DNA from: Deltaproteobacteria bacterium
Lineage (GTDB): Bacteria; Myxococcota_A; Polyangia; Polyangiales; Polyangiaceae
Length of the DNA stretch: 52,438 nucleotides
NCBI GenBank assembly: GCA_016875405.1
Contig: VGRJ01000022.1
Coordinates: 1-52,438, forward strand
Direction: 5' to 3'
The notes beneath the pieces were generated by a model that worked only from the letters and a program-made list of their open reading frames with translations, had not been told where the DNA came from and did no database searches. Positions 44,320 to 48,339 of this stretch are shown here, one piece after another; position 1 is the stretch's first letter, and every line of letters starts with the position of its first letter. A program made the position numbers and the translations under genes.

Positions 44320-45150
44320 TCAACGCAGGAGCGTGAGCGCGAGCTGCGGGGCCTGGTTGGCCTGCGAGAGGACCGAGGACCCCGCCTGAAGGAGCACCTG
44401 CGAGCGGGCGAGCTGCGACGTCTCCTCGGCGATGTCCACATCGCGAATCGCGCTGTTGGCCGCCTCTATGCTCGTGCGAATCGTCTGCACGCTCGAGATC
44501 GCGACCTGCAGCCGGTTCACGACGGCGCCAAACGTTGCGCGGTTGGTCAGCACCGACGTGAGCGCGGCGTCGACCGAGTCGATCGCGGCGAACGCCGTCG
44601 AGCCGTCGGAGCCGCCGATCGACACGCTGCTGAGACCGAGCGCGGAGGCCGACACCCCACCGAAGCCGAGCGCGATCACGTCGTTCGAGGTCGTGCCGAT
44701 GCCGACCTGGAAGTCGATCGACTGCGCCGTGCCGCCAAGGAGGACCGTGCCGTTGAACTGGGTGGTGTTGGCGAGGCGGTCGACCTCGTCCTTCAGCAGC
44801 TGAAACTCGGTGTCGAGGTAGCCGCGGTCGGTCGAGGAGAGGTCACCGCTCGCCGCCTGGACCGCGAGCTCGCGCATCCGGACGACGATCCCGCCGATCT
44901 GGCCGAGCCCGCTCTCCGCGGTGTTCGCCATGCCGACGGCGTTGCGGGTGTTGCGCTCGACCACGGTGTAGCTGCGGATTTGAGCCCGCAGGTTCTCGCT
45001 CACGGCGAGGCCCGCGGCGTCGTCCGACGCGGTGTTGATGCGGAAGCCGCTCGAGAGGCGCGTGTAAGTGCGCTGGAGCTGCTCTTGTGACTGCCCGAGC
45101 GCGTACTGCGCTCGTAGCGACGCGATGTTGCTTGTAATGACTACTGGCAT
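44320..45150 (-). CDS. fliC: Flagellin (second in tandem)
   Basis: 276 residues from ATG 45150, with the ribosome-binding site GGAGGGG seven bases before it. The N-terminal D0/D1 helices are canonical: MPVVITSNIASLRAQ, RLSSGFRINTASDDAAGLAV, and the C-terminal D0 helix IRDVDIAEETSQLARSQVLL with QANQAPQLALTLL. Between them is only a short linker, so the variable surface domains D2/D3 are absent, as in compact flagellins. Secreted by the flagellar type III apparatus without a signal peptide. About 70% similar to the upstream flagellin by eye, which suggests gene duplication. The longer frame upstream of the ATG is a GC-rich leader without family similarity. Confidence 0.95.
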   Translation of the reverse strand: MPVVITSNIASLRAQYALGQSQEQLQRTYTRLSSGFRINTASDDAAGLAVSENLRAQIRSYTVVERNTRNAVGMANTAESGLGQIGGIVVRMRELAVQAASGDLSSTDRGYLDTEFQLLKDEVDRLANTTQFNGTVLLGGTAQSIDFQVGIGTTSNDVIALGFGGVSASALGLSSVSIGGSDGSTAFAAIDSVDAALTSVLTNRATFGAVVNRLQVAISSVQTIRTSIEAANSAIRDVDIAEETSQLARSQVLLQAGSSVLSQANQAPQLALTLLR

Positions 45151-45672
45151 GACTCGACCCCTCCGATCGTCGTGCGTTTCGTAAATGGCTGGTTCATTGA
45201 CTCGTTCCCGTTCGCGCCGCGGAGCGTCGCGGCGAAGTCTGCGCCTCGAGGAGCGGCGCGCCCTAGCCGACGCGTCGCTGCCTCGAGGTCGGAGGCCGAA
45301 AGCGACTGGCGGTACGCTGCCTCCTCGGATCCGGTATTTCCGGGTCCGCCACGACGGACGCCGGTCTCCCGTCGTCCGCCGCTCACCGCCCCTTACACGC
45401 CTCGCTCGGCCATCCCTGTCCGGCGGGCCGCGCGGAGCGGCTCCCGTGGGCGAGGTCGTGACGCCATCCCTGATCGTCACGCCGCGCGCCGCGGGCTTGG
45501 TCTCTCCCCCGGGGTCTCGGTTCGTCTTCGAGCGAGAGCTCGAGCGACCTGCCTCGGCGGTTCTTGTTCCACCTCGTCGCCCGTCGCCCTTCGAAAGGGC
45601 GGGGGAGCTACGCGCCGTCACCCTGGAGCGGCGCGTAGCGTCCCGCGGGGAGTGGTGGGAACGTGTATGGGG
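45151..45672. other. 522-nt spacer between the two flagellins
   Basis: No gene is supported here; open frames are GC-rich artefacts. Two hairpins lie just after flagellin 2 when read on the minus strand: a perfect 10-bp stem GCTACGCGCC...GGCGCGTAGC at 45607-45639, then a 7-bp stem at 45585-45601 (CGCCCTT-CGA-AAGGGCG). Neither has a T run, so they may be processing or stability elements, or weak terminators. The ribosome-binding site of flagellin 1 is at 45158-45164. No clear promoter for flagellin 1 is seen. Confidence 0.6.
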
Positions 45673-46506
45673 TCAGCGGCCGAGCAGCTGCAAGGCGAGC
45701 TGAGGGGCCTGGTTCGCCTGGGACAGAACCGAGGCGCCGGCCTGGAGGAGCACCTGGGAGCGCGCGAGCTGCGCGGTCTCCTCGGCGATGTCCACGTCGC
45801 GGATCGCGCTGTTCGCGGCCGCGATGTTCGTGCGGATGGCCGCCGTGTTGGCGACCGAGATCTGGAGGCGGTTCGTCGCGGCACCGAAAGCAGCGCGAAG
45901 GGTCGACACGCTCTGGATCGCGGAGTCGACGAAGTCGATCGCGGCGACGGCCGCGGTGGAGTCCGAGCCGGCGACGTTGACGTTGCTGAGGCCGATGTTC
46001 GACGCGGTGACGCCGCCGAAACCGAGCGTGATCACGTCGTTTGACGTCGTTCCGACGCCGACCTGGAAATCGATCGACACGGCCGTTCCACCGAGGAGGA
46101 TGGTGCCATTGAACTCGGTCGAGTTCGCGAGGCGGTCGATCTCGTCCTTCAGGAGCTGAAACTCGGTGTCGAGGTAGCCGCGGTCCGTCGACGTCAGGTC
46201 GCCGTTCGCGCTCTGCACCGCGAGCTCACGCATGCGCAGCACGATGCCGCTAACCTGGCCAAGGCCGCCTTCGGCCACGACCGTCATGCTGATCGCGTTG
46301 TTCGTATTCCGCTCAGCGACGGCGTAGCTCCGGACCTTGCCGCGCAAGCTCTCGCTGATGGCGAGGCCCGCGGCGTCGTCGGCGGCCGTGTTGATGCGGA
46401 AACCGCTGGAGAGGCGATAAAACGTCCCCTGGAGACGGCTTTGAGTGTTGTTCAGGGCATCCTGCGCACGCAGCGATGCCACGTTCGTATTGATGACGAG
46501 CGGCAT
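45673..46506 (-). CDS. fliC: Flagellin (first in tandem) with structured leader
   Basis: 277 residues from ATG 46506. MPLVINTNVASLRAQ, RLSSGFRINTAADDAAGLAI and the D0 C-terminus IRDVDIAEETAQLARSQVLL with QANQAPQLALQLLGR are canonical; the middle is a compact D1 with no D2/D3. It is exported to build the filament. The ribosome-binding site AGGGAG is eight bases from the ATG and lies in one arm of a perfect 12-bp inverted repeat (see 46508-46593), which suggests that translation is off unless the hairpin is opened. The divergent two-component genes begin 200 nt away. Confidence 0.95.
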   Translation of the reverse strand: MPLVINTNVASLRAQDALNNTQSRLQGTFYRLSSGFRINTAADDAAGLAISESLRGKVRSYAVAERNTNNAISMTVVAEGGLGQVSGIVLRMRELAVQSANGDLTSTDRGYLDTEFQLLKDEIDRLANSTEFNGTILLGGTAVSIDFQVGVGTTSNDVITLGFGGVTASNIGLSNVNVAGSDSTAAVAAIDFVDSAIQSVSTLRAAFGAATNRLQISVANTAAIRTNIAAANSAIRDVDIAEETAQLARSQVLLQAGASVLSQANQAPQLALQLLGR

Positions 46507-46507
46507 G

Positions 46508-46593
46508 TTTCGAACTCCCTCTTAGAGTTTCGAACGGTTCGGCCGTCATCATGACGGCGGTGGCGGGGTCGAACCGTTCTCAGGGAGTTCGAA
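46508..46593 (-). promoter_or_regulatory. Nested inverted repeat that sequesters the flagellin RBS
   Basis: Three nested perfect stems in the leader of flagellin 2's neighbour at 46506: the outer TTCGAACTCCCT/AGGGAGTTCGAA (46509-46520 and 46582-46593, 12 bp), the inner GAACGGTTCG/CGAACCGTTC (46532-46541 and 46570-46579, 10 bp), and the innermost GCCGTCAT/ATGACGGC around one base at 46550 (8 bp). In the mRNA (minus strand) the outer stem's 3' arm contains the AGGGAG ribosome-binding site eight bases before the ATG, paired with CUCCCU. Confidence 0.75.
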
Positions 46594-46705
46594 CGACCGC
46601 TTTCCGAGGTCCTTGAGAACTTTTTTTAAAACAACACTTCTAATTATTCCGCACTCTTACGTGACAACGCCTCGCCGAGCCGCCCGCTTTGCTATGGTCG
46701 CTCCC

Positions 46706-47659
46706 ATGCTTCCGGGCTTGGTCGCCGGGTCCGAGGACCACAACCGCAGCTTCCGCCGCATGCTCTATCTGCTCGTCTGGCTCGTCATCGTGCCGACGGC
46801 GATGCTGCTCGCGCTGTCGATCGTGACGCTGATCTTTTGGGGCGCGAACATGCGGATGCTGTTCGGCATCCTGGTCATGACCTTTGCGTCGTGCGTCGTC
46901 ACCGGCGGCATCCTCCTCATCGTGTTCGTGCGCCGCGAGGCGAGCCTGTCGAAGCTGCAGCTCGACTTCGTCTCGAAGGTGAGCCACGAACTGCGCACTC
47001 CACTCACCTCGATCCGCATGTTCGCCGAGATGCTCGAGGACTGCCGCGACCCCGAGCAGACGGCGACCTGCCTCGCCGTCCTTCAGAAGGAGACGACGCG
47101 CCTCAGCGAGCGCATCGAGCGGCTGCTCGACTGGGGCCGCATGGAGGCGGGGCGGCGGGTGTACGAGCTCCGACGTGAGGCTCCGCGCGCCGTCGTCGAC
47201 TCCGCGGTCGCGGCGTTCGAGACGACGCAGGTCGGGCGCCCGCGGCGGCTCGACGTCGACGTCGCCGCCGATCTCCCCGAGCTGCTCGCCGACCGCGAGG
47301 CGCTCACCGACGCGCTCGTGAACCTGCTGACGAACGCCGTGAAGTACTCGCACGAGGAACCGCGCATTCGGCTCTGGTGTCGCCGCGAAGGAGGTTGGCT
47401 GCGCTTCGGCGTCTCCGACCAGGGGATCGGCATCGCGAAGCGAGAGCACGGGCGCGTGTTCCAGAAATTTTACCGCGTCGATGACCGGCTCTCGCGAGAG
47501 GTCGAAGGCTCGGGCCTCGGACTCGCGATCGTGCGCCACGTCGCGATCGGCCATCGCGGCAAGGTCGACCTCGAGAGCGAGCCGGGCAAGGGCTCGACCT
47601 TCTCGCTGCTCCTCCCCGTCCCGACCGACGCCGAGCTCGCGGAAGGAGCCTCGACGTGA
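46706..47659 (+). CDS. Sensor histidine kinase
   Basis: 317 residues from ATG 46706. An in-frame ATG at 46694 falls inside the TATGGT -10 box, so 46706 is preferred and would be leaderless. Two transmembrane helices (LYLLVWLVIVPTAMLLALSI at about 23-42 and MLFGILVMTFASCVVTGGIL) bracket a very short loop, so no real periplasmic sensor domain is present. The kinase core follows: H-box FVSKVSHELRTPLTSIRMFA, N-box ALVNLLTNAVKYS, G1 SDQGIGIA, F-box FQKFYRVD and G2 EGSGLGLAIV. It autophosphorylates on the H-box His and passes the phosphate to the response regulator, whose GTG overlaps this stop by four bases. Confidence 0.93.
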   Translation: MLPGLVAGSEDHNRSFRRMLYLLVWLVIVPTAMLLALSIVTLIFWGANMRMLFGILVMTFASCVVTGGILLIVFVRREASLSKLQLDFVSKVSHELRTPLTSIRMFAEMLEDCRDPEQTATCLAVLQKETTRLSERIERLLDWGRMEAGRRVYELRREAPRAVVDSAVAAFETTQVGRPRRLDVDVAADLPELLADREALTDALVNLLTNAVKYSHEEPRIRLWCRREGGWLRFGVSDQGIGIAKREHGRVFQKFYRVDDRLSREVEGSGLGLAIVRHVAIGHRGKVDLESEPGKGSTFSLLLPVPTDAELAEGAST

Positions 47660-48339
47660 CCGAGGGTCGAGAGTCGGCTCGGATCCTGGTCGTCGAAGAC
47701 GACGCGTCGATCCAGCTCGGGCTGCGGATGGCCCTCGGCAAGGAGGGCTACGACGTCACCACCGCGGAAGACGGCGTTTCGGCGCTCGAGCTGCTCGCGA
47801 GCGCGGGTTTCGACCTCGTGCTGCTCGACGTCATGCTGCCGCGCCTCAACGGGTACGAGGTACTGCGCACGCTCCGCCGGGAGGGCCTGACCGTACCGGT
47901 CGTGGTGCTGTCGGCCCGCAGCGCCGAGTGGGACAAGGTCACCGGCCTCGACCTCGGCGCCGAGGACTACATCACGAAACCCTTTAGCGTGCCCGAGCTC
48001 CTCGCGCGCGTTCGCGCGGCCCTGCGCAGGCGAATGAGCCCGCTCGCCCTCACCTACGGCGACGTGTCGATCGATCCCGAGCGGCGCGAGGTGCGACGCG
48101 AGGGCGAGCTCGTCGAGCTCACTGCCACGGAGTTCAACGTGCTGTGGTCGTTGGTGCAAGCTCGAGGCCGGCCGCTGTCGCGCGCCCAGATCTTCGAGGC
48201 CGTGTGGGGCCCGCAGCACCACGGGACGCAACGGACGATCGACAACTTCGTCGCGCAGCTACGCAGCAAGCTCGAGGCGGATGCGACGGCGCCCCGGCAC
48301 CTGCTCACGGTGCGTGGCATCGGTTATCGACTCGAGTGA
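47656..48339 (+). CDS. OmpR/PhoB-family response regulator
   Basis: 227 residues from GTG 47656 (GTGA overlap with the kinase). Receiver domain at about 9-120: ILVVEDDASIQLGLRMALGK, phosphoacceptor Asp in VLLDVMLPRLNG, VVLSARS and the switch Lys in DYITKPFSV. The DNA-binding winged helix fills 130-227 (TYGDVSIDPERREVRREG, LTATEFNVLWSLVQARGR, RTIDNFVAQLRSKLE, LLTVRGIGYRLE). It probably controls envelope or motility genes; control of the adjacent flagellins is suggested only by position. Confidence 0.95.
   Translation: MTEGRESARILVVEDDASIQLGLRMALGKEGYDVTTAEDGVSALELLASAGFDLVLLDVMLPRLNGYEVLRTLRREGLTVPVVVLSARSAEWDKVTGLDLGAEDYITKPFSVPELLARVRAALRRRMSPLALTYGDVSIDPERREVRREGELVELTATEFNVLWSLVQARGRPLSRAQIFEAVWGPQHHGTQRTIDNFVAQLRSKLEADATAPRHLLTVRGIGYRLE

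Follow-up and report, generated by a model that had tools for sequence, protein, structure and literature searches.

What do the inverted repeats in front of a flagellin gene do, when one of them takes in the Shine-Dalgarno (SD) sequence? This question is raised by a stretch of 52,438 nucleotides (the window), part of a genome of 5.0 Mb. Its closest relatives with a name are metagenome-assembled Polyangiaceae (Myxococcota), with records titled Polyangiaceae, Polyangia or Myxococcales bacterium, one of them from Lake Baikal. A sequence-only reading of the window had described three nested perfect repeats of 12, 10 and 8 bp, the outermost of which would lock the ribosome-binding site (RBS) in the folded mRNA. 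The two longer repeats were borne out on the minus strand: a 12-bp match joins TTCGAACTCCCT (46593-46582) to AGGGAGTTCGAA (46520-46509) as outer arms, and a 10-bp match joins GAACGGTTCG (46579-46570) to CGAACCGTTC (46541-46532) as middle arms. The inner repeat (GCCGTCAT/ATGACGGC) counts 8 bp as written, with only 1 nt left for the loop; in RNA it should therefore form 6-7 bp around a loop of 5 or 3 nt. The in silico fold proposed as a check gave a strong structure with the RBS paired, 171 nt folding at -63.5 kcal/mol versus -47.1 +/- 4.2 for shuffled sequences (z -3.9; 0 of 200 shuffles equal it). The features of the locus, all on the minus strand, are as follows.

46612-46616, minus strand: -35-like element TCAAG of a sigma28 (FliA)-type promoter, a pattern enriched upstream of flagellins
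46591-46596, minus strand: -10-like element TCGTTC of the same promoter, overlapping the 5' outer arm
46582-46593, minus strand: 5' arm of the outer stem, at -11 to +1, probably not transcribed; absent in orthologs
46580-46584, minus strand: predicted transcription start, about 46582, from sigma28 geometry and the phasing of H1 to the promoter in 64 leaders
46532-46579, minus strand: 5'-terminal stem H1 (46579-46570 with 46541-46532), enclosing the inner hairpin; from ortholog pairing and covariance search
46559-46566, minus strand: conserved bulge CCGCCACC in H1
46542-46558, minus strand: inner hairpin H2, loop A-U-G-A-U at 46552-46548, closed by C-G then U-A; CsrA-like site 1
46513-46529, minus strand: RBS hairpin H3, AACUCU[AAGAG]GGAGUU, loop at 46523-46519, pairing GGAG of the SD; CsrA-like site 2
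46515-46520, minus strand: SD sequence AGGGAG
46509-46520, minus strand: 3' arm of the outer stem, including AGGGAG
45673-46506, minus strand: flagellin 1, the putatively controlled gene, 277 aa, ATG at 46506-46504
44323-45150, minus strand: flagellin 2, 73% identical to flagellin 1, with an open GGAGGGG and neither the sigma28 pattern nor an RBS hairpin

Promoters of the sigma28 (FliA) type carry a TAAA-like -35 element and a CCGATAA-like -10 element at fixed spacing, with the consensus TAAAGTTT-N11-GCCGATAA. The promoter of the window reads TCAAGGACCTCGGAAAGCGGTCGTTC (46616-46591), its core being TCAAG-N16-CGTT at 46616-46592 of the minus strand. TCAAG and TCGTTC stand at the exact sigma28 spacing, but the -10 element differs from the consensus (CGTTC for CGATAA). 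The pattern T[AC]AAG-N16-CG[TA][TA] was found upstream of 70 of the 149 flagellins of the same genus, family and order, versus 0.44 expected. The 16-nt spacing stands alone, with 70 matches, each other spacing from 12 to 20 giving 0-9. A FliA-type sigma factor is encoded in the genome (207 bits, over the curated cut-off), and a simple scan for sigma70 promoters returned no match. If the G of the -10 element is taken as -12, transcription would start at 46582, give or take 2-3 nt. With starts predicted in this way, many relatives' leaders open within a few nucleotides of their first hairpin, and in 64 leaders the first stem and its loop are in phase with the promoter: pairing is 0.73-0.85 at +4 to +8 and 0.32-0.37 at +10 to +14. 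Other flagellin genes of the genus (L052, L050, L051, L048) are without the sigma28 leader. They show sigma54-like TTGGCACG elements, and in three cases a GTCAA-N4-TTGAC-like palindrome lies upstream.

The predicted fold is identical for every start from 46584 to 46580: a 10-bp stem encloses the inner hairpin, and a second hairpin stands apart at 46529-46513. Across six orthologs, 58 of 60 cells of this middle stem are paired, with 2-3 pair types at nine of the ten positions, and when the 3' arms are permuted only 2 of 720 arrangements, the true one included, pair as well. A covariance model built from three sequences matched eleven leaders at E <= 0.001. In the alignment of these eleven, 96.4% of cells are paired versus 31-53% when the arms are slid, and double changes occur at 10 pairs (6 in helix 1, 4 in helix 2, 0 in helix 3); this strict set was used instead of a larger alignment (27 matches), which held weak matches up to E = 1. 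The compensatory changes that were to be looked for in relatives are thus present, and they argue for a conserved RNA structure in which pairing is kept while letters change. Rfam gave no match at E <= 1 in 45000-47000 and none at the gathering score in 14 related loci, and a known RNA family was therefore discarded as a candidate. The 5' bulge CCGCCAC (46559-46566 in the window) is conserved in the window's leader group; its reverse complement, (T)GGCGGG, occurs in the first hairpin of many paralogous leaders (for instance L042, L043, L045 and L047).

With +1 near 46582, the 5' outer arm (46593-46582) would be promoter DNA and lie outside the mRNA. The sequence-only reading had tied its lock to a transcript that includes this arm, and the predicted transcript begins beyond it. 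Among 72 sigma28-type leaders, no other has a 12-bp match between the promoter and the RBS region (the runner-up reaches 7 nt, the median is 4), so that the match is not ordinary background; were the arm transcribed, the RBS would be fully paired. However, the arm falls on -10 to +1 of the sigma28-type promoter, and comparison of ortholog leaders found the outer stem in no relative. Between the -10 element and the stem, the window and its two closest orthologs each have 9 nt of unrelated sequence (GAACTCCCT, CCATCCACT, CCCTTAACT), and equal length with unrelated letters is what is expected of a promoter spacer. Promoter overlap and lack of conservation thus led us to discard the outer stem as a functional lock, and a lineage-specific switch in which it sits in the mRNA and locks the RBS appears improbable. 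The repeat may go back to a templated quasi-palindrome mutation, or may point to a second start further upstream. The palindromic repeats had also been considered as a DNA operator for the OmpR-type two-component system encoded divergently from flagellin 1 (46706-48339). In five relatives the histidine kinase gene divergently adjoins the orthologous flagellin, and so does the response regulator wherever the contig is long enough to include it, in four of them (L040, L041, L044 and L081; L039 is cut); this conserved position makes a transcriptional link between the system and the flagellin plausible. Yet an operator would keep its letters, whereas the leader keeps only its pairing, the mark of RNA, and the orthologs share no repeat sequence outside the promoter. 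The earlier preference for RNA therefore holds, and an operator function of the repeats seems very improbable.

If the outer stem is set aside, what closes the RBS? The idea that the RBS is sequestered is supported in silico, and the pairing is predicted to come from the local hairpin H3 (46529-46513), which the earlier reading had not listed, rather than from the outer stem: GGAG of the SD is paired with a probability of at least 0.96 on folding from +1 = 46582, and likewise for starts from 46584 to 46580. Throughout the family, sigma28-type flagellin genes are preceded by RBS hairpins of this kind. A CTC[CT]-loop-GGAG arrangement just before the start codon is seen in 74 of the 149 flagellins of the order, and 0.26% of shuffled 40-mers contain an RBS-type hairpin. 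A hairpin count over all GGAG-ATG sites of the flagellin loci was dropped, these loci being duplicated and chosen for their flagellins. As the SD sequence fixes its letters, H3 hardly covaries among close orthologs; the only double changes are in relatives with CCC/GGG stems (G101, G121). The base pairs just outside H3 (flank pairs 1-4) do not covary beyond chance in 74 leaders, so that the conserved stem measures only 4-6 bp. In the window, the unblocked site described for the downstream flagellin was recovered, its GGAGGGG being mostly unpaired in silico. The idea of a switch on just one flagellin survives in part: flagellin 2 does lack the device, but three flagellins of the genome have the hairpin. 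Nor is the pair near-identical, at 73%, and a genome-wide protein comparison gave six matches to flagellin 1. The whole genome contains six copies of CTCYANGARGGAG, half of them in front of flagellins; two of the other three sites lie in coding frames on inspection, one of them resembling translation initiation factor IF-2, and the third was viewed as sequence only.

The loops suggest what may read these hairpins. RsmE binds A(N)GGAX in loops of 5 to 8 nt closed by C-G and usually U-A, and known CsrA proteins need the full GGA; a GGA located in a stem would bind poorly (PMC4005645). In the window, both loops (AUGAU in H2, AAGAG in H3) have the form A-N-G-A-X, with C-G or U-G as closing pair; the full GGA (ANGGA) is missing from both, and the leader's only GGA lies in the H3 stem. 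Most RBS loops of Polyangiaceae share this form. Among the 70 five-nt loops seen in flagellin leaders of the order, position 1 is A in 69, positions 3 and 4 are G and A in all 70, and position 2 may be any base. Upstream hairpins with ANGAX or AANGAX loops occur in 44 of 72 leaders of the window's type versus 0.45 expected, while GGA loops in those hairpins are not clearly enriched (11 versus 6.7 expected). Conversely, where the RBS loop is ANGGAX, the upstream loop contains GGA in 12 of 24 leaders versus 2.0 expected. One loop rule thus tends to hold for both hairpins of a leader, as expected if a single dimeric protein reads them.

A candidate for such a protein is available. In the window's genome, csrA adjoins fliW on contig 115 (PF02599, 64.1 bits; PF02623, 75.8 bits). 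When a genome is counted as hairpin-positive if at least one flagellin has CTCY[ANGAX]GGAG or CUC[ANGGAX]GAG over its RBS, the hairpin is present in 43 of 44 CsrA-positive and 0 of 9 CsrA-negative genomes among 53 flagellated ones, some of them incomplete. On the flagellin tree, CsrA status changed four times independently, with the hairpin concordant in 3.8 of 4 pairings and opposite in 0; with four events only, the tree-corrected sign test has a minimum p of 0.125 and cannot reach significance. The sole FliW-negative genome with a consensus hairpin (G025) has CsrA, encoded just upstream of the flagellin. Several relatives (L063, L073, L203, L215 and L230) have csrA just upstream of the flagellin gene, and not beside fliW.

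Altogether, 46596-46507 of the minus strand can with fair confidence be described as a sigma28-type promoter followed by a structured leader of about 76 nt, which would place a late flagellin gene under the control of CsrA and FliW through two hairpins. The computation supports the promoter pattern, the covarying stems, the pairing of the RBS, the loop grammar, the presence of csrA and fliW and the joint loss of hairpin and CsrA. The exact start site, CsrA binding, repression and relief by FliW are inferred. In such a scheme, the leader would fold into the 5'-terminal stem enclosing H2, then into H3, which pairs GGAG of the SD. A CsrA dimer would grip the H2 and H3 loops and keep the RBS shut, repressing translation of the flagellin. 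At low free flagellin, FliW would bind CsrA; accumulating flagellin would capture FliW, which would result in homeostatic control.

Of the modes of opening listed by the sequence-only reading, protein binding is the likely one. A thermosensor finds hardly any credit: the RBS is indeed paired within a short hairpin, but no opening of H3 is predicted between 5 and 55 C, and no Rfam thermometer was matched. It is less far-fetched, although still unlikely, that a different RNA-binding protein takes the place of CsrA, or that the leader works by intrinsic structure alone, the 5' stem being an mRNA stabiliser and the RBS hairpin a fixed brake. The 5' stem does start within a few nucleotides of the predicted start in most leaders, and the loops are non-canonical as CsrA sites. 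Against this, bare structure would not need the nearly invariant A1, G3 and A4 of the loop (69-70 of 70), and hairpin loss follows CsrA loss. FlbT, an alphaproteobacterial flagellin-leader protein, was discarded as a candidate, no gene for it being found in the genome.

The CsrA/FliW reading has a proven precedent in the Campylobacter jejuni flaA leader, with its two hairpins, one of them over the RBS (PMC4894983). Both leaders are sigma28-driven and precede a flagellin, in both compensatory changes support the stems, and both genomes encode CsrA and FliW. However, the flaA loops are ANGGA and were shown to bind CsrA, whereas those of the window are ANGAX and only predicted as CsrA sites; the flaA leader has 45 nt, that of the window about 76 nt with a 5'-terminal stem (PMC4894983). 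With the Bacillus subtilis hag homeostasis system, the window shares the components CsrA and FliW and a flagellin leader as target (PMC6529632); the loop motif described for CsrA proteins is GGA, which the window loops lack. With the RsmE/RsmA targets hcnA and RsmZ, the window shares a penta- or hexaloop with A first and A near the 3' end, and the C-G closing pair, followed by U-A in H2; here, in contrast, the first G of GGA is not conserved, the loop being A-N-G-A-X or A-A-N-G-A-X (PMC4005645, PMC3791407). Closer at hand, the CUC[ANGGAX]GAG leaders of other Polyangiales and of Bdellovibrionota belong to the same gene and have the hairpin at the same place over the RBS, but their hexaloop contains ANGGA in full, and CsrA in those Polyangiales relatives is mostly Leu4/Thr5. 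Three features of the CsrA/FliW class are present (both genes, a hairpin over the SD, an upstream second site in H2), but the loop GGA that defines its canonical members is missing. The leader is therefore best regarded as a variant that would work like a CsrA/FliW flagellin leader, with a derived loop and an added 5'-terminal stem.

Did CsrA itself change along with the loop? In the outgroups (Bdellovibrionota and Oligoflexales), the ANGGAX form occurs in 12 of 28 leaders and the ANGAX form never, so that ANGAX looks derived. The RsmN complex shows Leu6 packed against the first G and Leu4 against the second, and its Ser7 is the equivalent of Thr5 in RsmE (PMC3791407), which makes Leu6 and Leu4 residues 4 and 2 in CsrA numbering. 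Among 44 CsrA sequences, residue 2 is Leu in 42 and Phe in 2, while residue 4 is Ile in 21, Val in 11, Leu in 8 and Phe in 4. Considering genomes with an RBS hairpin, GGA is kept in every loop in 6 of 7 with Leu4, whereas at least one loop lacks GGA in 28 of 36 without Leu4 (Fisher p 0.003, not corrected for kinship and confounded by shared ancestry). This association fits a relaxed recognition of the first G. Thr5 was rejected as the sole correlate of loop type, in view of exceptions (G015, G029, G060, G075, G082 and G109). It can be proposed, though as a tentative idea held with somewhat less than even confidence, that the CsrA of Polyangiaceae changed its RNA alphabet: it would read C-G-closed A-(A)-N-G-A-X, the first G of the widely conserved GGA having become dispensable and residue 4, once Leu, having become Ile, Val or Phe. 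In many leaders both hairpins would obey the new rule, so that protein and RNA would have co-evolved naturally.

As a global regulator CsrA is widespread, and its GGA signal is treated as near-universal. If the proposal is true, a clade that keeps the A, G and A of the loop minus the first G, with the contacting residue changed, shows a global RNA-binding protein shifting its specificity, and the prediction of CsrA targets would change. The locus would also extend RNA-level flagellin control to Myxococcota; the literature searched, with incomplete coverage, contained no published account of CsrA/FliW control of flagellin in myxobacteria. The architecture of the leader is absent from the Rfam copy searched.

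Two further observations concern sequences around the flagellin genes. About 35 nt past the stop codon of flagellin 1, a strong hairpin without a T run (CTACGCGCCG/CGGCGCGTAG, 45608-45638) is possibly a 3'-end or processing structure. In relatives, the same leader precedes short non-flagellin open reading frames of 75, 76 and about 30 aa (L082:2443-2517, L084:2427-2500 and L185:1509-1588); those of L082 and L084 are alike (MSL[FY]RHESEG...) and lie between the kinase and the flagellin.
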